From a virus, in the IMG/VR virus record IMGVR_UViG_3300032267_001142, positions 62,001 through 126,000 of that record: a DNA stretch of 64,000 nt; one strand, written 5' to 3'. The first letter of the stretch is position 1, and the number at the start of each line of letters is the position of its first letter. The position numbers and the translations under genes are program-made. Below the pieces are notes generated by a model. That model had not been told where the DNA came from. It did not search any database and saw only the letters and a list, made by a program, of their open reading frames with translations. This document shows positions 48,109 to 64,000 of this stretch, piece by piece.

Positions 48109-48480
48109 ATGAAAATAATTACAAGGTTCGTTAGATGGCTAACGAGATGGGCATGGAAGAAAGAGCTTGAGGCTACAGAAAACATCGCGACGCTAGAAAA
48201 GCTAGCCATGTCAGGAAATTACGCCGAGCTTGAGTTAAAGGCGAAATCTCCGGCGCTTCATCGTCATCTTTGTCGCTCTTTAGCGGCAATCGTCGCGGAA
48301 TCTCCGAATTACACAGAAATGAAATTCGATGTTGTCTCCGACCACGAGGACGGAAAGATATGGGTCACTGTCTTAGTTCAGAAAGGCTCAGGTCTTACTC
48401 CTCACGAATTGAGACGTGAAGCCGAGGCGCGGATAGCGGAGCTGCAAAAAGAGCTGGATTCTTTTAACAAGAGCAGTTAG
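48109..48480 (+). CDS. Unknown protein, possible membrane-associated N-terminus
   Basis: 123 residues. The first 18 residues (IITRFVRWLTRWAWKK) form a short amphipathic Trp/Arg-rich helix that might touch a membrane. The body has a beta hairpin and a C-terminal helix (LRREAEARIAELQKEL). No family recognised. Confidence 0.5.
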   Translation: MKIITRFVRWLTRWAWKKELEATENIATLEKLAMSGNYAELELKAKSPALHRHLCRSLAAIVAESPNYTEMKFDVVSDHEDGKIWVTVLVQKGSGLTPHELRREAEARIAELQKELDSFNKSS

Positions 48481-48483
48481 TAT
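48455..48483 (+). promoter_or_regulatory. Near-leaderless promoter for the ABC-GNAT gene
   Basis: -35 TGGATT (48455-48460), 17 bp spacer, -10 TAGTAT (48478-48483), 6 bases to the ATG at 48490. Confidence 0.5.
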
Positions 48484-48489
48484 CGCTCA

Positions 48490-49623: not shown

Positions 49624-49877
49624 CCGCTAAGATTATGGGATATCATCGAAGAAAAATACCTAAAGGCAAACTAGGAGAAGCGTCCAAAATAACAGAAGAG
49701 TATCAAGAGATGCTCGATGGATTAGAGCAAGGAAATAAGGTGCTTGTTATCTGCGAGTTAGCTGATATGCTAGGAGCTATAGAAGCTTACGCTCTCAAGA
49801 CTTTCAATTTAACACTTGAGGATTTGCACAAAATGTCTAAAGCTACCGCAAGAGCTTTCAAAAAAGGAGACCGGTAA
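49617..49877 (+). CDS. Small MazG-like NTP pyrophosphohydrolase
   Basis: 86 residues. LGEASKITEEYQEM and KVLVICELADMLGAIEAY give the ExxE...ExxD helices of a minimal MazG-like fold. ATG 49617 overlaps the previous gene by 7 bases; an internal ATG at 49635 (MGYHRRKIPKG) matches the usual family start and is an alternative. Confidence 0.72.
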   Translation: MLTAKIMGYHRRKIPKGKLGEASKITEEYQEMLDGLEQGNKVLVICELADMLGAIEAYALKTFNLTLEDLHKMSKATARAFKKGDR

Positions 49878-50458
49878 TGATAAACTTTAAGGTAATAGAT
49901 GATTCGATTAAGCACTATGAAAAACGCGGATTTCAGAGAATAGAGAGTCCGTGGACAGTGACTCAAGAAGTGCTGGATATCACTAAGCCTGATAGTGCCG
50001 TTGACTCGTTCCGGCTATTACATAAGAACGGTAAGGGTCTTGTAGCCTCTGGAGAGCAATCGTTTCTATATCTTTACTTGAAGGGTTTCCTACCGCTTGG
50101 AAGGTTCCAGACTGTGACGCCGTGTTTTAGGTTTGAGAATTTTGACTCCCTGCATACGAAATACTTCATAAAAAACGAACTAATAGAAACGAAAGCCGTC
50201 TCCGAGGCGACTCTAAATGATATTCTCGCGAACGCTCACGCTTTCTTCTCTTCGTATTTTTCAGACGCGGAGGAGCAGCTTAAAATAATAAAGACAAATA
50301 AAGAAGGCTCGCCAACGTCTTACGACATTTGTTATAGAGGCGTCGAGTTAGGAAGCTACGGTATTCGTAGTTGCGACTTTCTGGAATGGATTTATGGGAC
50401 TGGCGTTGCCGAGCCGAGGCTATCCCAAGTAATAAGGAAATTCAAAGACAAGCGATAA
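49877..50458 (+). CDS. Minimal class II aminoacyl-tRNA synthetase-like protein
   Basis: 193 residues. ASGEQSFLYLYLKG, then TVTPCFRFENF (motif 2, FRxE at 84-87) and FIKNELIE, and finally YGTGVAEPRLSQ (motif 3, GxGxxxR at 173-181) with SYDICYRGVELGSYGIR before it, follow the order of a class II synthetase catalytic core. There is no anticodon-binding or editing domain, so it is not an ordinary synthetase. Paralogues of this type activate amino acids for other ends (for example EpmA, AsnA) or act as regulators. Coupled to both neighbours (TAATG at each side), between MazG-like and NADAR genes. Confidence 0.6.
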   Translation: MINFKVIDDSIKHYEKRGFQRIESPWTVTQEVLDITKPDSAVDSFRLLHKNGKGLVASGEQSFLYLYLKGFLPLGRFQTVTPCFRFENFDSLHTKYFIKNELIETKAVSEATLNDILANAHAFFSSYFSDAEEQLKIIKTNKEGSPTSYDICYRGVELGSYGIRSCDFLEWIYGTGVAEPRLSQVIRKFKDKR

Positions 50459-50896
50459 TGAAACAACCGATACTTGGATTCTTTGGAGACTTCCGTGTCC
50501 TATCTAACTTTTGGCCGTGCGTAATAGAATACTGCGGCTATTCTTACCAGAATACGGAGGCGGCTTTTCAGGGCAATAAAAGCAACTCACAAGAGGATAA
50601 AGAAAGGTTTTCTTCCATGACCGCCGCCGAAGCGAAGAGAGAAAGTAAGAAACTTCGGCTTCGCGATGACTGGCTCGCCGTTAGGGACCAAATAATGCTG
50701 GACCTTATTAGGATAAAGTTCTCTAGTGCGAACCCCCGACTTGGTAGATAAACTCGAAGCTACAGGGGACGCATATCTCGAAGAGACTAACACTTGGGGA
50801 GACATCTATTGGGGAGTTTGCAAAGGCGTCGGCCAGAATAAACTCGGGAAAATAATCGCGCAGGTCCGAGAAGAAAACAGAAGCTCTTTTTGTTAA
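50458..50896 (+). pseudogene. NADAR-family protein split by a +1 frameshift
   Basis: ATG at 50458 (TAATG overlap). The first 97 residues show GFFGDFRVLSNFWPCVI, YQNTEAAFQG and the middle helices of a NADAR domain but end at TAG/TAA near 50751. From 50738 the +1 frame continues as DLVDKLEATGDAYLEE, NTWGDIYWGVCKG, GQNKLGKII up to TAA 50894-50896, exactly the missing second half. The frames meet at a run of five C (50733-50737). This is a real frameshift mutation, a programmed +1 shift, or a homopolymer sequencing error. NADAR enzymes remove ADP-ribose from DNA guanine or process ADP-ribosyl compounds. Confidence 0.75.
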
Positions 50897-50932
50897 ATAT
50901 TAGAGACAGGCTTATGGTGGCAACAATTTTTA

Positions 50933-50960
50933 TTGATTCTTCTCGAAAAACGTAGATAAT
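50933..50960 (+). promoter_or_regulatory. Near-leaderless promoter for the Rnl5-like ligase
   Basis: -35 TTGATT (50933-50938), 16 bp spacer with CGAAAAAC, -10 GATAAT (50955-50960), 6 bases to the ATG at 50967. The spacer matches that of the promoter at 45483. Confidence 0.6.
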
Positions 50961-50966
50961 CGCGCT

Positions 50967-51998
50967 ATGAAAAGAAAACTGGCCTCAGTAAATGTCCTGA
51001 CGAATCTTCAAAAAATCGAGGGTGCCGACACCCTACAGAAGGGCAACATTCTGGGGTGGTCAGTAGTAACAAAAGCCGGAGCCTTCTCAGAGGGAGAAGA
51101 GGTCGTATACATCGAAGCGGATGCGGTTCTTCCAGAGGTTACGGAGTTCGAGTTTCTTCGCAAGAATAAGTTTAGGATTAAGCCGTGCAGGCTGCGCGGT
51201 CAGGTGTCTTTGGGACTCTGTATCCCTCTAAGCGAGGCGAAACAGGTCGCCGCAAATCTCGGCAACACAAACGTCAACTGGTCTGTCGGTGAAGATGTGA
51301 CAGAAGCGCTAGGAATCAAGAAGTTCGAGCCGTATGTTAGCCTATCCCTTTCTTCCGATATCAAGGGGCTATTTCCTTCATTCATTCCTCAGACCGATGA
51401 AATGAGAATCCAGTCAGTGCCAGAGCTTCTTAACAGGCACGAAAACCGTGAAGTCTATGTGTCTGAAAAATTGGAAGGAAGTTCCGCGACGTATTACTTG
51501 AATGATGGCGTCTTTGGGGTCTGTTCAAGGACGAGAGAACTTAAAGAGAGCGAATCTAACGCCTTCTGGTCCGTAGCGAAAAAGAACTCCATAGAACAGG
51601 GACTCAATACACTTGCTAAGTTCAGCAAGAATACCAAAAATATTGCTATCCAAGGCGAGCTGATTGGCCCTAAAATTCAGGGCAATCACTATGGATTAAC
51701 GGCTCCAGAATTTCGTCTTTTCAATGTTTGGGATATTGACAAACAGTGTCCGGTCGATTATGGTGACTTGTGCCTCGCCAGCTCAGTTCTTGAGCTGTAT
51801 TTGGTGCCAATCGTATATCACCGTATAAATCTGTCCGACAAAACTCTGGAAGAGTGGGTTTCTTTTGCTAACGGAAGAAGTCAGCTTGCCGATGTTCTCC
51901 GCGAAGGAATCGTCGTCAGGGCGATTTCTCCAGTCAGAGACGAAGACGTAGGCTGGATGTCCTTCAAGGCGATTTCTTCCGAATACCTTCTGCGATAA
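50967..51998 (+). CDS. Rnl5/DraRnl-type RNA ligase
   Basis: 343 residues. The N-terminal 90 residues form an OB-like module (RKLASVNVLTNLQKIEGAD, VVYIEADAVLP, RLRGQVSLGLCIPL), then the nucleotidyltransferase domain has motif I SEKLEGSS (Lys 168), IAIQGELIGP (motif III-like), GIVVRA (IV) and MSFKAISSEYLL (V). The OB-first order is that of the Deinococcus DRB0094 (Rnl5) family, which seals nicks with an RNA 3' end. Followed directly by the DNA ligase gene. Confidence 0.83.
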   Translation: MKRKLASVNVLTNLQKIEGADTLQKGNILGWSVVTKAGAFSEGEEVVYIEADAVLPEVTEFEFLRKNKFRIKPCRLRGQVSLGLCIPLSEAKQVAANLGNTNVNWSVGEDVTEALGIKKFEPYVSLSLSSDIKGLFPSFIPQTDEMRIQSVPELLNRHENREVYVSEKLEGSSATYYLNDGVFGVCSRTRELKESESNAFWSVAKKNSIEQGLNTLAKFSKNTKNIAIQGELIGPKIQGNHYGLTAPEFRLFNVWDIDKQCPVDYGDLCLASSVLELYLVPIVYHRINLSDKTLEEWVSFANGRSQLADVLREGIVVRAISPVRDEDVGWMSFKAISSEYLLR

Positions 51999-53119
51999 TG
52001 AACAACCTGCCCACATTATACTCCCGTAATCAAGACGGCTCCGTCCAGCAGTGGACTATCTTTTATGATGAAGATGGGTATTGGACGGAAAGCGGAAGAG
52101 TTGACGGCGTCATAACGCAGCACGGCAAGGTCGCGTGCGTAGGTAAAAATCTCGGGAAAAAGAACGAGACCACCGCAGCCCAACAAGCCGCGAGCGAGGC
52201 GCGTAGTAAGTTTGATAAGAAACTCAAGACCGGCCACTTCGAGGATGTGGCGCACATTGATAACTTCTACTTTGTAGAGCCCCAATTAGCAGTAGCGCTT
52301 GATAAAGTTAAGGCTGGTCTAGTTACACCGTGTTTGGTGCAGTGTAAGTATAACGGCGGCTGCGTTATTGCGACCCGTAAAGGTCTGTTTTCTCGCAAAG
52401 GCGAAGAGTATCTGTCGATACCTCACATTCAGCAGGCATTGAAGCCTATATTCGACAAATATCCAAACGCGGTCCTTCACGGCGAGGCGTTTAACGAAGG
52501 GTTACGCCAGCATCTTAATGAGATAATGAAGATTCTACGCAGAACTGTGAATGTCACCTCGGAAGTGTTACAGCGTAGCGAACAGCTCGTCCGTTTTTAT
52601 ATTTATGACGGTTATGGGTTTGAGGGAATGGAAGAGGAGACGCCATACAAGGACCGCAAGGCTGCGATTGACAACATTATCGCTGGGCATCCTAAATATT
52701 TATTTCAAGTTCCTACAGCGAAATGCTTGACGCAAAAAGAAGTTTGGGCGCTTTATCAAAGTTACATAGACGATGGGCACGAAGGGGCTATCGTCCGCTA
52801 CGAAGACAACATCTACGAACACAAACGCACACAGAAGCTTATCAAGCTCAAGCCTACGGACGATGATGAATTTTTGGTTGTAGCCTTACATGAAGGCACC
52901 GGAGACTGGGCTGGCACGGCTAGGCGCGTTGATTTCAAAATGAAGAACGGCGAAGTGTTCGGCGGCAACTTTAAGGGAAAGTTTGAGCAGGCGAAAGACG
53001 CTTGGGAGCACCCAGAGAAATATGTCGGCAAAGTCGTAACAGTGAGCTACAACGGACTCACTGGGCTGAATACTCCCAATTTCGCGCAGCTTGACCCCGA
53101 CAATTGTTTCAAATCGTAA
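51998..53119 (+). CDS. ATP-dependent DNA ligase with N-terminal WGR-like domain
   Basis: 373 residues. Residues 1-80 (LYSRNQDGSVQQWTIF, KVACVGKNLGKKN) resemble a WGR-type DNA-binding module. Motif I is CKYNGG (Lys 117) with Asn in place of the usual Asp. HGEAFNEG (III), HEGAIVRYED (IV) and KLIKLKP (V) follow, then an OB domain ending at 373. Seals nicks in replicated DNA. Its ATG overlaps the preceding TAA by one base. Confidence 0.85.
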   Translation: MNNLPTLYSRNQDGSVQQWTIFYDEDGYWTESGRVDGVITQHGKVACVGKNLGKKNETTAAQQAASEARSKFDKKLKTGHFEDVAHIDNFYFVEPQLAVALDKVKAGLVTPCLVQCKYNGGCVIATRKGLFSRKGEEYLSIPHIQQALKPIFDKYPNAVLHGEAFNEGLRQHLNEIMKILRRTVNVTSEVLQRSEQLVRFYIYDGYGFEGMEEETPYKDRKAAIDNIIAGHPKYLFQVPTAKCLTQKEVWALYQSYIDDGHEGAIVRYEDNIYEHKRTQKLIKLKPTDDDEFLVVALHEGTGDWAGTARRVDFKMKNGEVFGGNFKGKFEQAKDAWEHPEKYVGKVVTVSYNGLTGLNTPNFAQLDPDNCFKS

Positions 53120-53526
53120 TGCCGGAAGCAAAAACAACAAAAGTTGGCAAAGTTTTCATTTTTCCGTCAAGCAAGTTCTATTATTCGATAGAATTTGTAG
53201 ACAACCTGACTGAACTGGAATCGTTTTTATCTGGTCCTTGTGAAATAAAGCCCGAAGCTTTATGTATCTCTGGGCAAATAACTCCAAGGGCTACTAATTC
53301 TGTGGGCCGGATTATCTTTAGAAGAGACTTATTCAATGTGCGTCTGGTCGTTCATGAAGCGTGCCACGCTGCACATTATATCGTTCATGGGGGCTACTTT
53401 GAATTCAAAGGCGATGCCTTTGATAAAGAAGAGCTTGTCGCGACTTTCACTGAAATGATTTTCGCGAAGACCTGCCGAGTAGTTTCTCGATTTGAAGATT
53501 TGACTGATTCCAAAAAGCGAAGATAA
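53119..53526 (+). CDS. Putative zinc metallopeptidase-like protein (HExxH)
   Basis: 135 residues from the ATG at 53119 (TAATG overlap with the ligase). VVHEACHAAHYIVHGG carries HExxH, and DKEELVATFTEMIF downstream offers a third acidic ligand, as in small phage metallopeptidase-like proteins. Substrate unknown. Confidence 0.55.
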   Translation: MPEAKTTKVGKVFIFPSSKFYYSIEFVDNLTELESFLSGPCEIKPEALCISGQITPRATNSVGRIIFRRDLFNVRLVVHEACHAAHYIVHGGYFEFKGDAFDKEELVATFTEMIFAKTCRVVSRFEDLTDSKKRR

Positions 53527-53990
53527 TGGCAGAAATGAAAGCGAACGCAAACAGTTTGTATTTAATGGTCGGGGCTCCAGCTTCAGGAAAGAGCACTTTT
53601 TCCATTCTCGATGCCGAGAAGAAAAGAGCCATCCGACTCAGCAGCGACGAGCTGCGTGCCACGATTGGTAAAAACGAAGAAGACCAAACCGTTACGGGCA
53701 AAGTTTTTGACTTTATTAAGGCCGCTGTCAAATACTTTCTGCGCGGAGGGTTTTCCGTCATCGTAGACGCCACGAACATCAATAAGAAAAACAGAGCGGA
53801 CTATCTCCGCATAGCCACGGAACTTAATGTGTCAGCGGTCGCTGTATGCTTTGAGGTGCCCGTCGAAGAGCTGAAGAAACGAAATTCCGAAAGGGCGCGC
53901 CAAGTGCCCGAATGGGTTATCGACAGATTTGTCAACTCGTACGAGCGCCCCACCCTATCTGAGGGCTTTTCGCGCATAGAAATGAGATAA
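53526..53990 (+). CDS. P-loop polynucleotide/nucleoside kinase-like protein
   Basis: 154 residues. MVGAPASGKSTFS (Walker A), RLSSDELRA, SVIVDATNINKKNR and KKRNSERARQ match the 5'-kinase domain type of T4 Pnkp (AAA_33 kinases). No phosphatase domain is attached; a metallophosphoesterase gene follows three bases later and could supply that step. Likely prepares RNA or DNA ends for the ligases. Confidence 0.78.
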   Translation: MAEMKANANSLYLMVGAPASGKSTFSILDAEKKRAIRLSSDELRATIGKNEEDQTVTGKVFDFIKAAVKYFLRGGFSVIVDATNINKKNRADYLRIATELNVSAVAVCFEVPVEELKKRNSERARQVPEWVIDRFVNSYERPTLSEGFSRIEMR

Positions 53991-53992
53991 CA

Positions 53993-54649
53993 ATGTTAAA
54001 AAATATCCACTTAACCACAAAAAACGGCAGCAACGTCTGGTTCTGCTCTGATACCCACTTCGGGCATGATAAGGAATTCATTATCAAGCCAAGGGGTTTC
54101 AATTCCATTCAGGAACACGATGCCGCTATCATAAAAGCTTGGAACGAGCGCGTGAAACCCTCCGACGCTGTCGTATTCCTAGGGGACTTCAGCCTGCGTT
54201 CGAGTGTAGAGCGGACAAAAGAGCTTCTGAATCTTCTGCATGGAACGATTTACTACATTTGGGGAAATCACGAAAGCTACGCTACGAGGATTTACAAAGA
54301 GGAACTCAACAAAGAGTTCGGCCACGCGAATTTCGAGATTTATCCCTTGAAGTGGAACAATAAAGTTGTATTCTTGGGCTCTGTAGCGAATGTTGTTGTC
54401 GATGGTCAGTTCATCGTGTGCTCTCATTTCCCATTTAGAATCTGGGAACACTGTCACCACGGGTCTTGGAATCTGAGCGGTCATAGCCACAGCAACGACA
54501 AAGAAAGAAACCCTGACCACACCGAGGGCAAGTGCCTCGATTGCGGCATTGATAACTTCTCCGGCCCGATAAGCTTCGCGGAAGTTTCTGAGAAACTCAA
54601 AAACCGAACGGTGGTCGCGTTAGACCATCACAATAGAAAAACCACATAA
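53993..54649 (+). CDS. Metallophosphoesterase, phage type
   Basis: 218 residues. FCSDTHFGHDK, VFLGDFSLR, YIWGNHES, IVCSHFPF and NLSGHSHSN give all metal ligands of the calcineurin-like fold. It follows the kinase gene and may act as an end-healing phosphatase. Substrate unproven. Confidence 0.8.
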   Translation: MLKNIHLTTKNGSNVWFCSDTHFGHDKEFIIKPRGFNSIQEHDAAIIKAWNERVKPSDAVVFLGDFSLRSSVERTKELLNLLHGTIYYIWGNHESYATRIYKEELNKEFGHANFEIYPLKWNNKVVFLGSVANVVVDGQFIVCSHFPFRIWEHCHHGSWNLSGHSHSNDKERNPDHTEGKCLDCGIDNFSGPISFAEVSEKLKNRTVVALDHHNRKTT

Positions 54650-54650
54650 C

Positions 54651-55595
54651 ATGAGTACTAATAAAGACCTATCTGTCGGAGTTATCGTCGGGCGCTTTCA
54701 ATGCGTGAATTTACACGCTGGGCACCGTTTCATTTTCGATGAGGTTATACGAAAACATAGCCGCGTCATTGTCTTCCTCGCTACAGGAGTACTGAAGGCG
54801 ACCGGAAATAATACGCTCTCCTATGCGGAACGCGAAAAGATGATACGCGAAGTATATCCTGACTTGGAAATTCATGAGTTGGAGAATCATCAGTCTGACC
54901 ACGAGTGGAGTCTGAACTTGGATAGGAAAATAGCTAGAGCAATACCTTTCGGAGTAAAGGCGCTGTTGTATTGTGGCAGAGAAGGTTTTAACAAGTACTA
55001 TTCGGGGAGTATAAGCGTGAACGTATTAAAAGCTCCAGAAGAGATTCTTGATTCTGCAACCGACCAAAGAAGAGAGGCTATATTCACTCCCATTTCGGAG
55101 AGAAATGCGTCGTTCCGAGCTGGCGCAATTTCGGCGGCTAATTCGCGCCCACCTACAGCCTATCAGACAGTAGACGTGGCGATACTTGATAAGAGCGGAC
55201 AAATCTTGTTGGCCGGAAAGCCGACGGACCCGCCGCATCTGTGGAGATTTGTGGGGGGTTTTTCCGAGCCTAGCTCACCGTCGCTAGAGCACGACGCTCT
55301 GAAAGAGGCGCGTGAAGAAGCGGGGCTTGAGGTCGCAAATCCCAAATATGTAGGTAGCCTTCTAACTGGCGACTGGAGATATCGTTGGGAAAAGGACAAA
55401 ATCAAGACCGCGCTATTTACGGTAGATTACGTCTTTGGAGCTGCGGTAGCGGGCGATGACGTTAGCCGCGTGCGGTGGTTTAACATCAAGGACGTGACAC
55501 TCGACATGATTGTTGAAGGCCATAGGCCGCTATGGGAAATGCTCAAAAGACATCTCGAAGATAAGAGTTGTCGTCCTGCACAAAGCGTAGTATAA
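54651..55595 (+). CDS. nadM: Bifunctional NMN adenylyltransferase / Nudix hydrolase
   Basis: 314 residues. VIVGRFQCVNLHAGHRFIF is the adenylyltransferase start (HxGH), with SYAEREKMI (the S/TxxR-like segment) and a C-terminal Nudix domain: WRFVGGFSEPSSPSLEHDAL, then KEAREEAGLEV. Same order as NadM-Nudix proteins. Makes NAD from NMN supplied by the nicotinamide phosphoribosyltransferase encoded next. Start two bases after the previous stop. Confidence 0.88.
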   Translation: MSTNKDLSVGVIVGRFQCVNLHAGHRFIFDEVIRKHSRVIVFLATGVLKATGNNTLSYAEREKMIREVYPDLEIHELENHQSDHEWSLNLDRKIARAIPFGVKALLYCGREGFNKYYSGSISVNVLKAPEEILDSATDQRREAIFTPISERNASFRAGAISAANSRPPTAYQTVDVAILDKSGQILLAGKPTDPPHLWRFVGGFSEPSSPSLEHDALKEAREEAGLEVANPKYVGSLLTGDWRYRWEKDKIKTALFTVDYVFGAAVAGDDVSRVRWFNIKDVTLDMIVEGHRPLWEMLKRHLEDKSCRPAQSVV

Positions 55596-55596
55596 A
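55568..55596 (+). promoter_or_regulatory. Near-leaderless promoter for the NAMPT gene
   Basis: -35 TTGTCG (55568-55573), 17 bp spacer, -10 TATAAA (55591-55596), 9 bases to the ATG at 55606. The elements lie in the end of the nadM gene. Confidence 0.6.
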
Positions 55597-55605
55597 AGAC
55601 CCATC

Positions 55606-57036
55606 ATGAAGCCAAAAATGAAAGACAACACGGTATTCCTACTTGATTCTTACAAAATCGCGCATCCTAAAATGTTGCCCGAAGGAACAACTGGCGCATT
55701 TTCTTATGGCGAATCGCGTAAAGGCGCTCGTTACCCCTATACTGCGCTTTTCGGTCTTAGATATATCCTGCAAACTCATTTGGCTGGGCCGCGAGTTACT
55801 CCTGAAAAAATCGCTCAAGCGAACGAGCTTCTGACTGAGCATTTCAAATTCTGCGGTGATGTTTATGACGCCCGCATCTGGGAATACATTCTGAGAGAGT
55901 ATAACGGGCGACTTCCGTTGACAATTCGCGCCGTTCGTGAAGGAACGAAAGTGCCTACCGCTAACATGATGGTCAGTGTAGAGACTAGCGACAAAAACTG
56001 CGCGTGGCTCGTCGGTGGCGTTGAAACGGTATTGCAGCAAATGTGGTATCCTTCTACGGTTGCGACGCGTAGTCGATGCATCATCGACATCATCAAGGCT
56101 TACTTCAAGAGAACTGTTGATGACGATTTGCAGTGGCTTGCGGATTATTATTTGCACGACTTCGGGCAGAGGGCCGCGACGTGTATGGAGGCGGCTGGCC
56201 TAGGGGGAATGTCGCATCTACTCAACAGCAAGGGCACGGACACTCTTATGGGTATGGCTTATGCTATTGACGAATATGACGCAAGCCCTAAAGATTTGGC
56301 ATATTCGGTTCCTGCTAGTGAGCACCTGATTGCCACGTCGCTAGGTAAAGCTGGAGAATTTGCGGTAGCCAAGAGGCTCTTGCAGCTTTTTCCGAAGGGC
56401 ATATTGTCGCATGTTTCGGATAGCTATAACATCACTGAGGCAATCAGGATGTATAACGAAGACCCCGAGTTCCGCCGACTTATCTTGGCGAGGGATGGTA
56501 AATTCGTAGCTAGACCCGATAGTCCACGCTTTGAGCAGGACACGCCGCAAGACCAGATTCTTTGGATTACCCAACAGTGGGACAAGGGTTACGGCCACCG
56601 CGTAAACACTAAGGGCTATAAAGATTTGGACCCTCATGTCGGAACTATCTACGGAGATAGCCTTACAGAGGACAATATTGAGGACACGCTTAGTCTGCTA
56701 GAACAAAACGGTTATAGCGCGTTGGCGAGCGTTTTCGGATGTGGTGGTTATTTAATCCAGCGGATGCACCGCGATACTCAGCGTCAAGCTTTCAAGTGCA
56801 GCGCCCTCATGCACGACGGCGAGTGGCGCGATATCTGTAAAGAGCCGCTGGATAAGACGAAGGTTTCCAAGAAAGGGCGGCTCAAGCTCATCAAGAACGA
56901 ATATGGAGACTTTGAAACGGTTCCGTTTGAAGTGGACAAGCCCGACCAGATGGTTACGGTGTTCAAGAACGGCAACATGATGAACGTGGAAAACTTCGCG
57001 CAAATCAGACGCCGCATCAACGGAGAAATAGAATGA
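55606..57036 (+). CDS. nadV: Nicotinamide phosphoribosyltransferase
   Basis: 476 residues, normal length. FLLDSYKIAHPKMLPEGT, YSEGES-like SYGESRKGARY, VETVLQQMWYPSTVAT, HDFGQRA, GTDTLMGM, ASEHLIATS, SHVSDSYNI, and GDSLTEDNIE with FGCGGYLIQ match NAMPT/NadV throughout. Converts nicotinamide to NMN; with NadM it rebuilds NAD in two steps, useful when host NADases are triggered or for phage metabolism. Own promoter. Confidence 0.93.
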   Translation: MKPKMKDNTVFLLDSYKIAHPKMLPEGTTGAFSYGESRKGARYPYTALFGLRYILQTHLAGPRVTPEKIAQANELLTEHFKFCGDVYDARIWEYILREYNGRLPLTIRAVREGTKVPTANMMVSVETSDKNCAWLVGGVETVLQQMWYPSTVATRSRCIIDIIKAYFKRTVDDDLQWLADYYLHDFGQRAATCMEAAGLGGMSHLLNSKGTDTLMGMAYAIDEYDASPKDLAYSVPASEHLIATSLGKAGEFAVAKRLLQLFPKGILSHVSDSYNITEAIRMYNEDPEFRRLILARDGKFVARPDSPRFEQDTPQDQILWITQQWDKGYGHRVNTKGYKDLDPHVGTIYGDSLTEDNIEDTLSLLEQNGYSALASVFGCGGYLIQRMHRDTQRQAFKCSALMHDGEWRDICKEPLDKTKVSKKGRLKLIKNEYGDFETVPFEVDKPDQMVTVFKNGNMMNVENFAQIRRRINGEIE

Positions 57037-57212
57037 GCGCCGGAAAGGGAGACAAGCCTAGAAATCTAGGCCCGAACTTCAAGAAGAACTACGACTTGAT
57101 TAAATGGAAAAAGACCTCGCAAACAGACCACAAGAGTCGATGTGGCAAGCCTTCAACAGAATTGAAGAAGAACTCGAAAAAGAAATCACCGAGTGGGAAC
57201 GAGCCAACCTAG
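57033..57212 (+). CDS. Small conserved phage protein of the GKGDKPR type
   Basis: 59 residues; ATG 57033 overlaps the NAMPT stop (ATGA). The first 27 residues (SAGKGDKPRNLGPNF, NYDLIKW) match a short motif I recall from many small phage proteins of unknown role. From 57104 it overlaps the thymidylate-synthase-family gene in another frame for 109 bases. A perfect hairpin GCCTAGA/TCTAGGC lies at 57056-57071. Confidence 0.6.
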   Translation: MSAGKGDKPRNLGPNFKKNYDLIKWKKTSQTDHKSRCGKPSTELKKNSKKKSPSGNEPT

Positions 57213-58072
57213 TGCAAAACAACGCCGATAAAAGATATTTCGAGCTAGTCAATAAAATACTAGCCGAAGGAGAATGGAAAGGCAACAGGACGGGTGTAGA
57301 TTGTCTAGCGATTGCGGGATTCATGTTTGAACATGATATGAGCGAGGGCTTCCCTCTACTCACCAGCCGTAAGTTGCCGTTCAAAAGCACTACGGTCGAG
57401 CTAGAGTTCTTCATTAAGGGCCTCAGAAGCAAGAAGTGGCTTCAGGACCGAGGGTGTCATTATTGGGACGGGTGGTGCAATCCACAAAAAGTGGCATACG
57501 CCCATGACGAAGAGACTAAGCGCAGGATGGCAGAAGAGGACGATTTAGGTCTTATTTACGGAACGCAATGGAGAGATTTCCGTGACCCAAGCATGCCAGA
57601 CGGAAGTGGTATCGACCAACTCAAAGAAGCCGTTAATAAACTCAAAACTAATCCGCTCGACAGGAGAATGCTTGTCTCGGCTTGGAACCCGCTAGCTATA
57701 CCTCATGCGGCGCTTCCTAGCTGTCATGATGGGTTCAGAATCTCCGTCGTGAATAACAAGCTAAACTTAGCTTGGACACAGCGCTCAGTTGATGTTTGTT
57801 GCAATCAGAGCATTACAACTTACGGTCTCCTGTTGCATCTTTTAGCTAAAGAAGCGAATCTGCAAGAAGGAAAGTTGATAGGATTTTTGATGGATTGTCA
57901 TATCTACAAAAACCATTTAGACGGTATACAAAAACAACTATCTCAAAAAACTCACAACCTTCCGAGAGTTCAGACAAAGAATTTTAGTTCGATATTCGAC
58001 TGGACATATAGCGATACGTCGCTATTAGATTATCAACATAGCGAGCCGATTAGATACGAGGTTGCAATATAA
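57104..58072 (+). CDS. thyA: Thymidylate synthase-family enzyme, divergent
   Basis: 322 residues. EGEWKGNRTGV, EGFPLLTSRKLPFKS, LIYGTQWRDF, LPSCHDGF (catalytic Cys), WTQRSVDV and a C-terminal EVAI are thymidylate-synthase motifs. The base-recognition loop differs: the usual LGLPFNIAS is two residues shorter (CCNQSITT), so the dUMP-contacting Asn appears to be Ser 236. The first 45 residues are an extra charged helix; a later ATG at 57140 is possible. DHFR and dCMP deaminase in the same genome fit dTMP synthesis; hydroxymethylation of a pyrimidine is an alternative. Confidence 0.85.
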   Translation: MEKDLANRPQESMWQAFNRIEEELEKEITEWERANLVQNNADKRYFELVNKILAEGEWKGNRTGVDCLAIAGFMFEHDMSEGFPLLTSRKLPFKSTTVELEFFIKGLRSKKWLQDRGCHYWDGWCNPQKVAYAHDEETKRRMAEEDDLGLIYGTQWRDFRDPSMPDGSGIDQLKEAVNKLKTNPLDRRMLVSAWNPLAIPHAALPSCHDGFRISVVNNKLNLAWTQRSVDVCCNQSITTYGLLLHLLAKEANLQEGKLIGFLMDCHIYKNHLDGIQKQLSQKTHNLPRVQTKNFSSIFDWTYSDTSLLDYQHSEPIRYEVAI

Positions 58073-58076
58073 GCCG

Positions 58077-58105
58077 TTGCGATTCTTAAAAACATATCGT
58101 ATAAC
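58077..58105 (+). promoter_or_regulatory. Near-leaderless promoter for the gene at 58112
   Basis: -35 TTGCGA (58077-58082), 17 bp spacer, -10 TATAAC (58100-58105), 6 bases to the ATG at 58112. Confidence 0.65.
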
Positions 58106-58111
58106 ATCAAG

Positions 58112-58579
58112 ATGAACCTCTTTTTTTTAGACCCTGACTTGCAACGCTGCGCGGAAGCCCACGTTGACCGACACGTTGTCAAAATCATCACTGAGGCTAA
58201 TCAGTGTATGGCGTGCGCCTATCCCAAAGGCGTCGCACCTTACCGCCACTCTTACACTAACCACCCGATGACCGTTTGGGTCCGCACGAACCTTGCGAAT
58301 TTTAACTGGACGGTTGAATACTGCCTAGCTCTCTGTTACGAATACACTTACCGATATGGCCGCGTCCATGCCGGAGAAAGGGTCGCCAACTGGTATAAAC
58401 AAAATCCTCCCACAATTCCTAACGGAGAATTGACAGAGCCACCGCGTTGTTTTGGGGCATTCAAAGACCAAATCAATATCACTACCAGCGTCTACGACGA
58501 TTACCGCTCATATTACAAGGTCGGCAAGAGCCATCTATTCAATTGGAAAAACCGCGCAACACCGAGTTGGCTACTATGA
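58112..58579 (+). CDS. Conserved phage protein, unknown function
   Basis: 155 residues, rich in His, Cys, Tyr and Trp: MNLFFLDPDLQRCAEAH, VDRHVVKIITEANQ, YRHSYTNHPMTVW and a C-terminal YRSYYKVGKSHLF, WKNRATPSW. The pattern of invariant-looking aromatic and His residues suggests an enzyme, and similar proteins are familiar in large phages, but I cannot assign a function. Own promoter. Confidence 0.6.
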   Translation: MNLFFLDPDLQRCAEAHVDRHVVKIITEANQCMACAYPKGVAPYRHSYTNHPMTVWVRTNLANFNWTVEYCLALCYEYTYRYGRVHAGERVANWYKQNPPTIPNGELTEPPRCFGAFKDQINITTSVYDDYRSYYKVGKSHLFNWKNRATPSWLL

Positions 58580-58758
58580 GCGATAAAAACAAAGTCAGAG
58601 CATTGATTAAGAAGACTCAGCATGTCGCTGACGCGAGAGACGCCGCCTACAGGCGAGAAGCGGCTAAAGACGCGGCAGAGCAGGAATCTACAGTCGAAGG
58701 AGCAATGCTGGCATTAAGCATACTGCTAGCAGGTTATCCCAAGGGCAGACGCTCATAA
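58576..58758 (+). CDS. Small charged helical protein, unknown
   Basis: 60 residues from ATG 58576 overlapping the previous TGA (ATGA). Mostly one Ala/Lys/Glu helix (DARDAAYRREAAKDAAEQE) ending GYPKGRRS. No family recognised. Confidence 0.5.
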   Translation: MSDKNKVRALIKKTQHVADARDAAYRREAAKDAAEQESTVEGAMLALSILLAGYPKGRRS

Positions 58759-59583
58759 ATGACAAGAGTAGTTAATAAGAAATTCACCAAAGACTTCGAC
58801 GTATTCATCGGTCGTCCGTCTTTGTTTGGCAATCCTGATGTAATCGGTATTCACGGAACCCGTGAGCAGGTAATCGCCGCTTACAAAGCCGCGTTTTACG
58901 AAAGGGTCGGCTCAGATTTGAAATTCAGAGAAGAGGTCAAAGCCTTAAAAGGCAAAACCCTTGGATGCTTTTGCAAAGACCCAAATAAGGAAGTACCGTG
59001 CCACGGCGATGTCTTCGTTGAGTTCTTGGAAGAGTGTCCAAAATTTCGAGTGGCGTGCGTGGGCAGTCGGGAGATTTCAGAAGAGAAGCGGCTTTTGCTT
59101 TCACGAGTTGGAAAGCATATCGCAGCGAGGAATTGGTGGCTGTCTTCTGGGAATGCGTTGGGAAGCGATATAGCTTATGCCTCTGGCGCGAATGAGGTAG
59201 ACCCTACCCGCGTTGTGCTTTATCTTCCTTGGCTAGCTTACAACGAGGAACATATAGTAAAAGGTAACTGGAAATCGGCGGTGATAAAGCCTGAATGGCT
59301 CGAAATAGCGAAAGAACACCACGGCAAATGGGACGCTTTAGGCCAAGGTGGTAAGAAAATGATGGGAAGAAACGTGGGAATTGTCTCTCGTGCCAATGTG
59401 GTCTTGGCAGTGCTGAATCACAACAAAGTCGGCTTTGGCGGAACCGGACAGGCGTGGAGGGTAAGCGAAAGTTTAGGATTGCCGTGTTTAGACCTTTCCT
59501 TGGATTACAAATACGAGTATATTGTTTCATTCCTAGAGGAACACTATGAGTCTACACGTCAGAAAAACATCCAGTTGTCCTAA
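58759..59583 (+). CDS. DUF4326 - SLOG/DprA-like fusion protein
   Basis: 274 residues. Residues 1-95 match DUF4326: DVFIGRPSLFGNP, GTREQVIAAY, KGKTLGCFCKD and PCHGDVF. From about 97 the protein has CVGSREISEEKR and LSSGNALGSDIAYASGA, the Rossmann-like SLOG/DprA-type nucleotide-binding fold, ending with GGTGQAWRVSESLG. Such domains bind nucleotides or nucleotide-derived signals. Possible role in NAD or signal-nucleotide metabolism given the neighbours; not established. Confidence 0.68.
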   Translation: MTRVVNKKFTKDFDVFIGRPSLFGNPDVIGIHGTREQVIAAYKAAFYERVGSDLKFREEVKALKGKTLGCFCKDPNKEVPCHGDVFVEFLEECPKFRVACVGSREISEEKRLLLSRVGKHIAARNWWLSSGNALGSDIAYASGANEVDPTRVVLYLPWLAYNEEHIVKGNWKSAVIKPEWLEIAKEHHGKWDALGQGGKKMMGRNVGIVSRANVVLAVLNHNKVGFGGTGQAWRVSESLGLPCLDLSLDYKYEYIVSFLEEHYESTRQKNIQLS

Positions 59584-59767
59584 CTGCGGCGCTTCATCCG
59601 CGCCGAGCGATGCGCGGTGCGGGTATTGTGGTTCGTTTTTTATCGACTCGTATAACCGCCCAAAACAGCCACATCCAATTATGACCACGGGCTGTTACTC
59701 TAGGGCATATCCCGTTTTCACTGGAGAAATCTTTTGTTGTTCAGGTATAGCCCATCCATACGTTTAA
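59546..59767 (+). CDS. Zinc-ribbon protein
   Basis: 73 residues. SCPNCGASSAPSDARCGYCG is a clear CxxC...CxxC zinc ribbon; two more Cys follow near the end. It overlaps the previous gene by 38 bases in another frame, with AGAGGA a few bases before the ATG. Its stop overlaps the next start (TAATG). Likely nucleic-acid or protein binding. Confidence 0.6.
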   Translation: MSLHVRKTSSCPNCGASSAPSDARCGYCGSFFIDSYNRPKQPHPIMTTGCYSRAYPVFTGEIFCCSGIAHPYV

Positions 59768-60888
59768 TGAAGAGGAGGCTTGTCATATTTTGCACAGGAG
59801 GAATGGGCGACATCATCATGGCATCTCCGATGATTCGTCAGCTCACCAAAACGTATTCCGTGACGCTTGTGGCTAAGCGCTGGCATCATCCCGCGATAAT
59901 GCTGCGCGATGTTAGCACTATCTATTACGAGGAAATTAAGGGGCAAAACGTAATAAGCAAAAACCCTCAAGGTAAGACCGACTTAAACATATCCGAGTCT
60001 TTTTTCGAGGCTACCGTCCGAGGCGACTTGTGGATAGTCCCGCTGTTAGACGGTGATGTAATAGCTGGAGGGCAAATAAAGAAAAGTTCATTCCCAGTCA
60101 GTATCGTGGACGGAAAGAATATGTGCCGCAGCGATTTGCTGCTTTTGAAATATACAGATTGGGACGGAGGTAGATACGAGTTTGAATGTTCCACGACAGA
60201 AGACACGGAAGGCTACCGAATTACGCCGAGTATCGCGCTGTGCTCGTCAGCGGAAAAATTAAGGACTCTGCCGGTCGGCGCTGTTCAAAAAATACTTTCT
60301 AGGTATTCACACATAAACGCCGCAGTAATAGGAGCGGAGAAAGATTATCCTAGATTGCCTATACAAGAGATATGTGCGAGCCGAGACATAAATCTTGATT
60401 ATCGCTGCGACTCCAGAAAAGACTACGCGTCGATTCAGTGGAAATTCAAGGCTGTCGCAGATTCGGATTTGGTAATAGCGACCGATTGTGGTTGGGCGTG
60501 GATTGCGATGGCGCTCAAAATACCTGTAGTGTGGCTGGAGAGTAGGGTCTCTTACGAGCGCTTAATACCTAAGCATTATTGGGATGCCGTAAAACTCTAC
60601 AAGTCCTACAAAATAAGCTGCGATAGGATGTGTCAGGCCGGAAGGGAAGAGATGCTCGCAAGAATATATGGCGACAGCGCCAATCGCCCGAGAGAGAATT
60701 GGCAGTTCTTTAATGGTGGTCCGAAAGAATTTTCACTCAGATTGCCTGACGCACAGTCTCACTTTGATTTGGCGTGTAGGCAAAAAGAAAACGTCCCCTG
60801 CCTAGATTATAGCGAGGCTGACGTTTCACAAATACTAAGCTTAGCAGAGGAATTGGCTCCCGCGCTGAAAGGATGCAGAATACGTTGA
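59767..60888 (+). CDS. GT9-like (heptosyltransferase-type) glycosyltransferase
   Basis: 373 residues from the ATG at 59767. RRLVIFCTGGMGDIIMASPMI is the GT9 N-terminal motif, and SDLVIATDCGWAWIAMALKIPVVWL is the C-lobe donor-binding motif. Both lobes are in one chain, unlike the split GT9 near 16.2 kb. Probably adds a sugar to a cell-surface or phage glycan. Confidence 0.72.
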   Translation: MKRRLVIFCTGGMGDIIMASPMIRQLTKTYSVTLVAKRWHHPAIMLRDVSTIYYEEIKGQNVISKNPQGKTDLNISESFFEATVRGDLWIVPLLDGDVIAGGQIKKSSFPVSIVDGKNMCRSDLLLLKYTDWDGGRYEFECSTTEDTEGYRITPSIALCSSAEKLRTLPVGAVQKILSRYSHINAAVIGAEKDYPRLPIQEICASRDINLDYRCDSRKDYASIQWKFKAVADSDLVIATDCGWAWIAMALKIPVVWLESRVSYERLIPKHYWDAVKLYKSYKISCDRMCQAGREEMLARIYGDSANRPRENWQFFNGGPKEFSLRLPDAQSHFDLACRQKENVPCLDYSEADVSQILSLAEELAPALKGCRIR

Positions 60889-60912
60889 CTCTACTGGCAT
60901 AAAGAGTAACAT
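60885..60912 (+). promoter_or_regulatory. Near-leaderless promoter for the MazG-like gene at 60922
   Basis: -35 TTGACT (60885-60890), 16 bp spacer, -10 TAACAT (60907-60912), 9 bases to the ATG at 60922. Confidence 0.6.
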
Positions 60913-60921
60913 ACAGAGAAT

Positions 60922-61212
60922 ATGGATAAGACCCAACACCTATTGACAATTCTCATGGAAGAATGCGCGGAAGTCTCGCAGCGGGCTAGTAAAGCGCTCC
61001 GCTTTGGTCTAAAAGAGCAGCAGAGCGAGCTTCACCCGCCAAACGATGAGAGGCTCACTTACGAGTTTGCCGACCTATTGGCCGTGTATCGCTGTTTGGT
61101 GGATTTGGGACTACTGAAGACGCCATCACCAGAAGATTTGGAAAAGAAGAGGATGAAGCTGGAGGAGTATACAAAGTATTCTCAATCGCTAGGAATCGTT
61201 GACCCTGATTAA
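60922..61212 (+). CDS. MazG-like NTP pyrophosphohydrolase
   Basis: 96 residues. LLTILMEECAEVSQRASKALRFG and TYEFADLLAVYRCL give the ExxE and ExxD helices of the MazG-like fold. Third such protein in the window. Likely clears aberrant dNTPs. Own promoter. Confidence 0.8.
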   Translation: MDKTQHLLTILMEECAEVSQRASKALRFGLKEQQSELHPPNDERLTYEFADLLAVYRCLVDLGLLKTPSPEDLEKKRMKLEEYTKYSQSLGIVDPD

Positions 61213-61214
61213 AA

Positions 61215-61463
61215 ATGCGCCCAGCCAAAACTCATGAATTAAAAATCCTTCCGAAATACTTCGTAGCGGTAATCTCAGGCGCGAAAACGTTTGAGATTCG
61301 CGAGAAGAGGGATAGAGACTTTCAAGTAGGCGACATTCTTTGGCTAAGGCAGTATTTGCCGTACCCAGAGAACAGATTCACGGGTCTTGGCGTGTACAAG
61401 CGTGTCTCTTATATTTCCGAGTTCTTTGAAAAAGAGGGGTTCGTAGTGATGTCGATAGTATGA
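61215..61463 (+). CDS. DUF3850/ASCH-like protein
   Basis: 82 residues. THELKILPKYFVAVISGAKT, FEIREKRDRDFQVGDILWLR and a final FVVMSIV match the small DUF3850 (ASCH-like) phage family, thought to bind RNA. Follows the MazG-like gene after two bases. Confidence 0.8.
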   Translation: MRPAKTHELKILPKYFVAVISGAKTFEIREKRDRDFQVGDILWLRQYLPYPENRFTGLGVYKRVSYISEFFEKEGFVVMSIV

Positions 61464-61864
61464 ACAATATCAGATATCGAGTTTGGGACATCAAGAATAA
61501 ATCGTTCACAAACGATGATTCTATTTGCGTGTCGCCGCTAGGCAAGGTTTTCTCTATTCGTGATTATACGAGAGACGTATCGGACAGATTCATTATTCAG
61601 CGGTTTACTGGCGTCAAAGATAGCGTCGGCGTGGATATTTACGAAGGTGACATTGTTAAAACAGACCCGAAGCATATCACCGTCTCTTTGTGTGACGTTT
61701 CTGAATATACGCATGGGGAAGTCCGTTGGTTTAACTCCTCGTTCAAAGTCTGTCAAGAGTTTATAGGCGCGGCGTATCTTAACGATTATGTCACTTGTAA
61801 CTGCTGCGGCTGTGGCTTGACGATAATTGGAAACGTATTCAATACACCTTACCCTTGTGAATAA
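61460..61864 (+). CDS. YopX family protein
   Basis: 134 residues. IRYRVWDIKNKSF, IIQRFTGVKDSVGVDIYEGDIV and a C-terminal LTIIGNVFNTPY match the YopX phage family. A Cys-rich insert (CNCCGCG) is unusual. Function unknown. ATGA overlap with the previous gene. Confidence 0.82.
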   Translation: MNNIRYRVWDIKNKSFTNDDSICVSPLGKVFSIRDYTRDVSDRFIIQRFTGVKDSVGVDIYEGDIVKTDPKHITVSLCDVSEYTHGEVRWFNSSFKVCQEFIGAAYLNDYVTCNCCGCGLTIIGNVFNTPYPCE

Positions 61865-61870
61865 CAAAAG

Positions 61871-62476
61871 ATGAGCGACAAATACAAGATTAACGAAGTC
61901 TATACTCTACGAGTTTTTTCTGAGCCGGAAGAAATGGAATACCTAGGAAAGATTCAAAACTCTAAAACTAACGGCGCGGACACTTCAATTGTTTTTGAAG
62001 TGTTTCGTCGCATGTCTTTCGGAAGATTAGATTTGATGGCGCTAGCCAGTAATAAGTTCATCGCTAGGTCATACGACGGGACTATAGAGGGATTGTTGGC
62101 GGAGATTAGGAAAGGATTGACATTCTTCGGAAGTGGTCACGACTCCATCACAGTCGGCGACAAGAAACTACAAATAGGAGAGTTCAAAGCTCAGGTCGCC
62201 GGTTTATTAACCGACGAGCAGATTGAAGAGAGTGTTTTACGAGGTCGTTACGACGCAATAAATAACGGACATGGTGAAGTGAAGTGGTGCCCATCTTGCG
62301 GAAGGGTATCGCAGACTAGCTGCGCTGCCTGTGGTTGCGGTAATTGTAAGACTTGCGGACATCGTTGGACGTGCCAAACACCATTTATGCAAGTTGTAAA
62401 TCTTCTCTCTCCTTTCTCCAAGTTTTTTATTGACAAATCTGAAAATCAGTGTAATATAACAGCGCCTAGGAATTAG
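61871..62476 (+). CDS. Unknown protein with C-terminal Cys-rich zinc-binding module
   Basis: 201 residues. The N-terminal 135 residues have no recognised family. Residues about 140-170 carry WCPSCGRVSQTSCAACG and CKTCGHRWTC, several CxxC pairs that would bind one or two zinc ions. The end of the gene holds the promoter for the next gene. Confidence 0.55.
   Translation: MSDKYKINEVYTLRVFSEPEEMEYLGKIQNSKTNGADTSIVFEVFRRMSFGRLDLMALASNKFIARSYDGTIEGLLAEIRKGLTFFGSGHDSITVGDKKLQIGEFKAQVAGLLTDEQIEESVLRGRYDAINNGHGEVKWCPSCGRVSQTSCAACGCGNCKTCGHRWTCQTPFMQVVNLLSPFSKFFIDKSENQCNITAPRN
62430..62457 (+). promoter_or_regulatory. Promoter with a longer leader for the gene at 62521
   Basis: Consensus -35 TTGACA (62430-62435), 16 bp spacer, -10 TAATAT (62452-62457); TATAAC at 62455-62460 is an alternative. 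The ATG at 62521 is 63 bases further, so this transcript has a leader of about 55 bases, ending in an A-rich stretch without a ribosome binding site. Confidence 0.65.
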
Positions 62477-62520
62477 CCTCGGCAGAACAAGTCCTCATTA
62501 GTGGGGCGAAAACAAAAAAA

Positions 62521-63252
62521 ATGTCAAATAAAGCAAACGCTTTGTCCGTTCTAGTAAACGGTCGTAACTGCAAGACCTATGGAAAAGATGGAAGGGTCTT
62601 CATTGAAGGCCGCAAAGGGTCCGAATACTCTATCAGGATTACCAATGACCGTATCCGCAGGGTTTTGGCCGTCATTACGGTAGACGGAATCAACGTCATC
62701 AGCGGCAATCTCGGCGGCGATGGTGATGAGGGTTACGTGATTGAGCCGTTCTCCAAGGCTGAGATTAAAGGGTTCCGCACTTCGGAAAGCGAAGTCCACC
62801 CGTTCCTGTTCAGCGACAAGGATAAAAGCTACGCCGCGAAAACCGATACCGAAGGTTCCAGTGACCGTAATTGTGGAGTTATTGCGGTTAAGCTATTTCA
62901 GGAATATCGTCCCGAACCGACTTACATGATGCGCAAGAAATCTCTGTCGCCAGACTGGGATTTATCAACAATGAGAGGCGCGCACGATGCACAGTATAGG
63001 TCTTGTCTGACCTCCTGCGCCTCGCTTAATGAGGTAGGCTCTTTTGATTTGGGCACCAAGTTTGCCGATGAGGCAATTACCGACACCGTTACCACAGTGT
63101 CCTTTACTAAGGGGTCGCTCATTGGAATTGATGAGATTTACTACGCGTCTTTCTCCGAGCTAGAGAAGATGGGCGTCATTGATAAGTCCCCGAAGGTAGC
63201 TTTCCCTCAAGCTTTCCCTGAAAGGAAATTCTGCAAGCCTCCGAAAAAGTAA
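62521..63252 (+). CDS. Conserved phage protein, unknown function
   Basis: 243 residues. LVNGRNCKTYGKDGRVFIEG, RKGSEYSIRITNDR, LAVITVDGINVISG and GYVIEPFSKAEIKGFR form a beta-rich N-terminal domain like one seen in other phage and bacterial proteins of unknown role. The C-terminal half is less ordered and ends in Lys/Pro. It has the strongest -35 of the rightward block and may be abundant. Confidence 0.6.
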   Translation: MSNKANALSVLVNGRNCKTYGKDGRVFIEGRKGSEYSIRITNDRIRRVLAVITVDGINVISGNLGGDGDEGYVIEPFSKAEIKGFRTSESEVHPFLFSDKDKSYAAKTDTEGSSDRNCGVIAVKLFQEYRPEPTYMMRKKSLSPDWDLSTMRGAHDAQYRSCLTSCASLNEVGSFDLGTKFADEAITDTVTTVSFTKGSLIGIDEIYYASFSELEKMGVIDKSPKVAFPQAFPERKFCKPPKK

Positions 63253-63259
63253 AAAGCTC

Positions 63260-63287
63260 TTGCAAAGGCGAAAAAGAGAGCTAGTAT
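63260..63287 (+). promoter_or_regulatory. Near-leaderless promoter for the gene at 63295
   Basis: -35 TTGCAA (63260-63265), 16 bp spacer with CGAAAAA, -10 TAGTAT (63282-63287), 7 bases to the ATG at 63295. Confidence 0.6.
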
Positions 63288-63294
63288 AGGATAT

Positions 63295-63585
63295 ATGCAA
63301 ATTCCCACATCTGACGAACTCCAGCGCAATATCGTAACAGGAGCGCCTCGATATGATTCTCCTAGCCATAAGCAACAGGAGACAGCCGAGACAGCCGAGA
63401 CAGCCGAGACAGTCCTAGCCGTAGGCGCAGCTCTAGGTGGCTCGTTGTCTTACGGGTTCGATGGTCCGTGCGAGCCAGCTCTCCGTGCCGAACTAGAGGC
63501 TAAAGGATATGAAGTAGAGGATGAGTGGTATCCAGCCGATGAGCGCGGGCCTAAATCTTGTTACGTTTTTGTCAGCCCGAAGTAA
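63295..63585 (+). CDS. Small protein with Glu-Thr-Ala repeat, unknown
   Basis: 96 residues. An N-terminal polar part, then an ETAETAETAET repeat at about 29-39, then SLSYGFDGPCEPALRAEL and AKGYEVEDEW, which may form a small alpha/beta fold. No family recognised. Own promoter. Confidence 0.5.
   Translation: MQIPTSDELQRNIVTGAPRYDSPSHKQQETAETAETAETVLAVGAALGGSLSYGFDGPCEPALRAELEAKGYEVEDEWYPADERGPKSCYVFVSPK
63381..63412 (+). repeat. 9-bp tandem repeat GACAGCCGA, about 3.5 copies
   Basis: Three perfect units at 63381-63389, 63390-63398 and 63399-63407, followed by GACAG. In frame, it encodes the ETA repeat of the gene at 63295, so copy-number change would not break the frame. Confidence 0.9.
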
Positions 63586-63624
63586 TTCGGAAATCGTTCC
63601 CTCAAAAAAAAAACGAAAAAGTTC

Positions 63625-63653
63625 TGGACAATCCGAAGAAAGTAGTGTAAACA
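63625..63653 (+). promoter_or_regulatory. Candidate promoter for the 63.66-63.86 kb transcript
   Basis: -35 TGGACA (63625-63630), 17 bp spacer, -10 TAAACA (63648-63653), 9 bases before the ATG at 63663. Preceded by a run of ten A at 63605-63614. Confidence 0.4.
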
Positions 63654-63662
63654 TCATCAGTA

Positions 63663-63776
63663 ATGAAAGCAGTCACCTTTAGTATTAAACACGGTTCCGC
63701 CGATTTGGTGGGGTATAATCTCCCCACGAATCAGCGTCTACAGGCAACCTGTGCCTCAGAACCGAAAGAAACATAG
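63663..63776 (+). CDS. Possible 37-residue leader peptide
   Basis: ATG 63663 to TAG 63774-63776, with no ribosome binding site but at the same distance from a promoter as other genes. The sequence (VTFSIKHGSADLVGYNLP...) has no recognised motif and lies over a strongly folded RNA. It may be a leader peptide controlling the downstream terminator, or may not be translated at all. Confidence 0.3.
   Translation: MKAVTFSIKHGSADLVGYNLPTNQRLQATCASEPKET
63692..63764 (+). ncRNA. Three-way-junction RNA structure (candidate ncRNA or cis element)
   Basis: Closing stem CGGTTC (63692-63697)/GAACCG (63759-63764). A long hairpin is built from CGC 63698-63700/GCG 63734-63736, GATT 63702-63705/AATC 63729-63732 and GTGGGG 63708-63713/CCCCAC 63722-63727, with an 8-base loop. 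A second hairpin ACAGG 63740-63744/CCTGT 63748-63752 has a CAA loop. Nearly every base of the 73-base span is placed. It matches no riboswitch or tRNA that I recognise. Confidence 0.55.
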
Positions 63777-63778
63777 AA

Positions 63779-63852
63779 CTGCGAGCGATAAAAGAAAACA
63801 GGTCAGAAGACAACCCGCCGCTCGCAGAAAACGAAGGCGGGTTTTCAATTTT
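63779..63852 (+). terminator. Rho-independent-type terminator overlapping a second stem in pseudoknot topology
   Basis: Terminator stem AACCCGCC (63812-63819)/GGCGGGTT (63836-63843) followed by TTCAATTTT. A second stem CTGCGAGCG (63779-63787)/CGCTCGCAG (63819-63827) interleaves with it: its 3' arm lies in the terminator loop and shares base 63819. The two either compete or form a pseudoknot. Confidence 0.65.
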
Positions 63853-63976
63853 AGCAGAAAAGTTTAAGGGATAGCCAATGTCCCCGAAAAAATTGGTAAA
63901 CTCCGGTGAGGACGCGGCAGAAATTCCGGCTCTGTTTAACGACAGATGACTTAACTCGCGCATGTAAAAGACGATT
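63853..63976 (+). other. Intergenic stretch with short hairpins, otherwise empty
   Basis: After the terminator there is no credible gene until 63977. CCAAT/ATTGG (about 63875-63895) and CCGG/CCGG (about 63903-63929) can form weak hairpins. No promoter with a good -35 was found here. Confidence 0.4.
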
Positions 63977-64000
63977 ATGGAAAAAATCCATTATTCACGC
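63977..64000 (+). CDS. Possible start of the next gene (partial)
   Basis: ATG at 63977 opens a frame of eight codons to the window end. TAAAAG lies 6 bases upstream, at the spacing of the other promoters, but no -35 is visible. Too short to judge. Confidence 0.25.

Follow-up and report, generated by a model that had tools for sequence, protein, structure and literature searches.

Genomic setting of the element

The window, i.e. the whole stretch of 64,000 nucleotides analysed here, corresponds to positions 62001-126000 of a 186,105-base IMG/VR virus contig. The gene content is that of a large phage (DnaE-type polymerase, ribonucleotide reductase, RNA ligases, terminase, portal, and NAD salvage genes), and the host of this large virus belongs to the bacteria. 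The element of interest sits between a 96-aa ORF and an HNH endonuclease gene. Approximately 1 kb past the terminator, beyond the window edge, starts a tRNA array with about 20 members. The upstream operon contains a 243-aa, a 96-aa, and perhaps a 37-aa gene. The features are as follows:

63295-63585: 96-aa ORF, the 5' neighbour of the element
63663-63776, + strand: putative leader ORF of 37 codons, proposed from sequence, MKAVTFSIKHGSADLVGYNLPTNQRLQATCASEPKET; stop TAG at 63774-63776
63669-63673, + strand: possible segment 1 (GCAGT), which could pair weakly with ACTGC at 63778-63782
63692-63764, + strand: three-way junction inside the leader ORF, from folding against shuffles
63779-63787, + strand: 5' arm of stem S1 (segment 2), beginning 2 nt past the leader stop codon
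63812-63819, + strand: terminator 5' arm, AACCCGCC
63819-63827, + strand: S1 3' arm, CGCTCGCAG, in the terminator loop
63836-63843, + strand: terminator 3' arm, GGCGGGTT
63844-63852, + strand: T-rich tract, TTCAATTTT, directly 3' of the terminator stem
63977-64000, + strand: HNH endonuclease gene (283 aa), starting at 63977 and continuing past the window edge

Several other observations concern the same genome. The 243-aa protein (window 62521-63252) has homologs only in RHph_I1_18, Atu_ph07, and Phosso among 50,697 phage records, and this restriction to three large rhizobial phages hints at shared ancestry or host range. An intein-like insertion in the DnaE-type polymerase, one of two (window 18783-21818 and 37482-39635, both on the - strand), is missing from the homolog in contig G001, with Hint and intein-splicing matches below the Pfam cut-off; the large subunit of ribonucleotide reductase also has an intein-like insertion, with an Intein_splicing match above the cut-off. 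A GNAT acetyltransferase domain is fused to an ABC-type ATPase at 48490-49623 (phrog_11143, a phage family of unknown function that occurs in very different phages). The interior of the tRNA array contains small endonuclease-like ORFs (L002:5281-5847 on the - strand, 7095-7622 and 8121-8537 on the + strand) that show HNH-type motifs by eye and have no Pfam match. The array further includes a tRNA with anticodon CUA (L002:10081-10154, outside the window), a possible amber suppressor. TAG serves as stop codon in nine of 63 window genes and also ends the proposed leader, giving the array a possible feedback on the leader that precedes it.

Junction and interleaved stems

The stems are real structure at the coordinates listed above. 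The three-way junction proposed in the preliminary description is present, with P1 formed by 63692-63697/63759-63764, two enclosed arms, and a minimum free energy of -32.2 kcal/mol; none of 200 dinucleotide shuffles was as stable (z -4.26). Windows at 63681 and 63691 rank among the most stable 0.2% of 18,548 + strand windows (15th non-overlapping peak), and stability is less marked over the full 228 nt (z -2.45). The third most stable fold on the phage + strand is located elsewhere, at window 45341-45430, in a gap between divergent operons.

Downstream of the junction, the interleaved arms and the T-rich tract proved exact as first described: S1 is an exact stem of 9 bp and the terminator stem an exact 8 bp, with a single common base at 63819. 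Since the overlap is only one base, a true pseudoknot may form; the geometry in the window permits one of the H-type, and the folding was computed with programs that do not model pseudoknots. Two interleaved pairs of perfect 9- and 8-bp stems occur in the genome (both strands) compared to 0.19 per randomised genome. At least one such pair was found in 16 of 100 randomised genomes, and thus the interleaved geometry alone is only moderately unlikely.

Rfam covariance models, those of riboswitches, T-boxes, tmRNA, and ribozymes included, yielded no match to the element at gathering score or at E up to 5, in line with the initial impression that it resembles no known RNA family. Other identities were rejected. 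Rfam and ARAGORN were negative for a tRNA or tmRNA identity (ARAGORN found neither in the window), Rfam matched no group I or group II intron enclosing the HNH gene, and a type III toxin-antitoxin RNA (ToxI-like) is out, as 63560-64000 has no direct repeats and the next gene encodes an HNH endonuclease.

Leader ORF and expression signals

The 37-residue frame had initially been set against the structure as a competing explanation. It is probably a leader peptide, because a short ORF, a stem, and a terminator also precede the array of a distant relative. The 37 codons of the window leader cover 19 of the 20 amino acids (no Trp) without a run of any one of them, and the G001 leader likewise contains 19 (no His). 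The P values for the number of distinct amino acids, a statistic picked post hoc with the peptides already seen, were 0.013 (window) and 0.028 (G001) against same-length windows of the gene products of the window phage. Amino acid and codon diversity taken jointly gave P 0.006 and 0.0016, each against its own phage, and 0.011 and 0.007 among ATG ORFs of similar length per phage. The leaders of Atu_ph07 (18 amino acids in 42 codons, P 0.12) and Phosso (19 in 54 codons, P 0.18) were not significant. A short ORF with high amino acid diversity is not by itself diagnostic, as such ORFs also occur ≤2.5 kb upstream of the array in several cultured array phages.

Codon usage of the 37-residue frame is like that of non-coding frames and not gene-like. 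No Shine-Dalgarno sequence precedes the leader ORF; gene starts in window 45500-63600 mostly have none, and such sequences appear to be unused in this phage. A -10-like TATAGG lies a few bases before the start of the 96-aa ORF, whose mRNA may therefore be leaderless. The promoter first placed just upstream of the element did not hold up in a consensus scan, and by eye TGGACA...TAAACA (63625-63653) agrees at eight of 12 positions. Between the terminator and the first tRNA, the sole + strand promoter-like match in the window phage lies inside the HNH gene, and G001 has none.

Relatives with a similar layout

Only one contig shares the element, and it is 99.98% identical and represents the same virus. 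It was also the sole relative to emerge when IMG/VR was scanned with the stem sequence and with four genes (243-aa, HNH, 201-aa, and NAMPT). A terminase scan for relatives, searches of cultured phages with the RNA, the 37-aa frame, and the 96-aa frame, and a search for a paralog of the RNA elsewhere in the window phage found nothing. Searching with a polymerase segment returned 58 loci; neither the RNA nor the 243-aa gene was found in the polymerase-locus records checked, the best match at the DNA level being 23 nt long. A last viral scan and one genome scan (ordinary bacterial DnaE matches) added no further array phage.

The polymerase segment led to G001, a contig of 149,934 bases and the nearest distinct relative (polymerase 50% identical, 34 tRNA matches), of which 39 kb were compared and matched just one of 16 genes of the window's region. 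Directly before its tRNA array, G001 has the same layout as the window, with no similarity in sequence. The order in G001 is a promoter-like site just 5' of the ORF (11 of 12 consensus positions), a 40-codon ORF, a 12-bp stem beginning within the ORF stop codon, and a terminator (ACCCTTAGAAGC/GCTTTTAAGGGT, then T's) whose 5' arm shares seven bases with the 3' arm of the stem. TAAGGGT occurs in segments 2 and 4, both capable, like their counterparts in classical attenuators, of pairing with segment 3, and 2:3 and 3:4 pairing are mutually exclusive. A junction like that of the window was not seen in G001.

Agrobacterium phage Atu_ph07 and Sinorhizobium phage Phosso, two cultured rhizobial jumbo phages examined because they carry homologs of the 243-aa gene, have a related layout before their arrays. 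The last small annotated gene before the array (42 codons in Atu_ph07, 54 in Phosso) runs into a stem (-28.9 and -33.4 kcal/mol) that overlaps a terminator (-16.9 and -20.0, respectively). Here the stop codon is on the loop side of the stem, 26-28 nt past the 5' arm, and not adjoining it. In G001, Atu_ph07, and Phosso both stems compete for the same bases, unlike the one-base overlap in the window. Pairing of segments 1:2 is clear in G001 and Phosso and weak in the window and Atu_ph07. The first tRNA of the array is tRNA-Gly(GCC) in the window phage, G001, and Phosso. Promoter-like sequences 3' of the terminator in Phosso imply that its array need not depend on read-through.

Enrichment before tRNA arrays

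A layout scanner with strict limits, run blind over 3.3 Mb strand-bases, returned the window locus and its duplicate, G001, and two poor matches. Strict S1/terminator pairs without the ORF condition numbered six in 1.19 Mb strand-bases of background. Such pairs were present ≤1.3 kb upstream of four of 29 phage tRNA arrays versus 0.19 expected (P 5e-5), and of three of 28 versus about 0.19 without the window itself (P about 0.001). The four arrays are those of the window phage, G001, Atu_ph07, and Phosso; with G001 being kin to the window phage and Atu_ph07 to Phosso, they represent two groups and not four independent cases. No such stems were located upstream of the arrays of T4, T5, KVP40, G, XacN1, CcrColossus, GAP32, 65, RaK2, nt-1, P59, and pT24, or of a dozen IMG/VR or rhizobial arrays. 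Phage tRNA arrays therefore do not generally have the layout, and most of those tested lack it.

A proposed ribosome-mediated attenuator and its alternatives

An intrinsic terminator (63812-63852) stands between the leader and the HNH gene with the tRNA array. We give about an even chance to the element being a ribosome-mediated (leader-peptide) transcription attenuator in front of these genes, and the evidence argues more for this manner of working than for membership of any class. RNA polymerase would transcribe the 37-codon leader ORF, then S1, then the terminator. An unhindered ribosome would reach the leader stop and cover the 5' arm of S1, so that S1 would not fold, the terminator would form, and transcription would end near 63852 (OFF). 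A ribosome stalled in the leader would instead allow S1 to fold once its 3' arm is transcribed, hindering the terminator, and polymerase would continue into the HNH gene and the tRNAs (ON). Given that nearly every amino acid is present in the leader, the signal might be a general shortage of charged tRNA, e.g. after the action of host tRNA-cutting defences, upon which the phage tRNAs would be switched on. An amino-acid-specific attenuator of the trp/his type is excluded by the leader composition, which has no repeated control codons.

The analysis establishes the stems and where they lie, the array next to them, the layout shared by the relative, and the enrichment before tRNA arrays; leader translation, termination, antitermination, and the signal are inferred. 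The leader stop ends at 63776 and S1 starts at 63779, so a ribosome at the stop would be expected to mask S1. In the folding model, for both the window phage and G001, nascent S1 was near certain with the ribosome well upstream and zero with the ribosome at the stop, where the terminator reached 0.95-0.99, an occlusion result that partly follows from the geometry selected by the scanner. At equilibrium, the complete RNA often prefers the terminator even with S1 free, so S1 would have to act kinetically. The chief doubt is the one-base overlap: S1 need not block the terminator, and a pseudoknot may weaken antitermination. The codon usage of the ORF, the missing Shine-Dalgarno sequence, the weak promoter, and the many arrays without the layout also speak against an attenuator.

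The single shared base, together with a G+C-rich hairpin and T-rich tract that suffice for termination, would fit a plain intrinsic terminator closing off the upstream operon and insulating the tRNA genes beyond, with S1 and the junction being incidental or stabilising the 3' end. Interleaved stems of this size arise about 0.2 times per randomised genome. Against it stand the recurrence before the G001 array, the higher than expected number of such stems upstream of tRNA arrays, and a junction far more stable than its shuffles, and we consider this reading somewhat unlikely. The compact, stable junction, the non-coding codon usage of the frame, and the position next to a tRNA array, as in T4, could also suggest a stand-alone small RNA, structured and roughly 200 nt long, that is transcribed from its own promoter and ends in a pseudoknotted terminator, akin to T4 RNAs C and D. 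This idea from the preliminary description is kept as an improbable rival: the promoter it needs is weak and was not found by the consensus scan, Rfam has no match, and G001 retains the ORF-stem-terminator layout with no similar junction seen.

The preliminary description had also offered a riboswitch or attenuator acting on the following genes. The attenuator is favoured, in its translation-controlled type, while a ligand-binding riboswitch, in which the junction would be the aptamer and the interleaved stems the expression platform, is very improbable. A three-way junction does adjoin alternative stems and a terminator, but Rfam gave no match even at E up to 5, no similar junction was seen in G001, and riboswitches do not usually act on a homing endonuclease or on tRNAs.

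The element bears on when phages express their tRNA arrays and on the purpose of these arrays, be it codon supply or the replacement of tRNAs destroyed by host defences. It is possible, though doubtful, that a general sensor of translation exists in some large phages with tRNA arrays: interrupted translation of a leader peptide with nearly every amino acid would antiterminate their own tRNA set, which would thus be made once host tRNAs are cut or become scarce. A literature search found no description of such array control, which is weak evidence of absence. If true, a ribosome-read attenuator spanning nearly all amino acids would couple the expression of the array directly to a lack of tRNA.

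Comparison with known systems

T4 RNAs C and D resemble the element in being structured, 100-200 nt long, and next to a phage tRNA cluster. Those RNAs, however, are at the other end of the cluster, 3' of the tRNAs, and are annotated as stable RNAs with no leader ORF or attenuator. T-box leaders read tRNA charging by direct tRNA binding and a choice between terminator and antiterminator. The element would likewise read tRNA charging through such a choice; unlike a T-box, it has no T-box match in Rfam, and its proposed sensor is a translating ribosome. The trp, his, and ilv leaders of E. coli are ribosome-mediated attenuators of amino-acid operons. The element differs from them in having nearly all amino acids and no run of control codons, in preceding a phage HNH endonuclease gene and tRNAs, and in that segments 2:3 and 3:4 of the window overlap by one base. 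What it has in common with these leaders is a short putative leader ORF, a stop adjoining segment 2, a candidate antiterminator stem opposed to a terminator, and, as proposed here, downstream genes that would relieve the very shortage being sensed.
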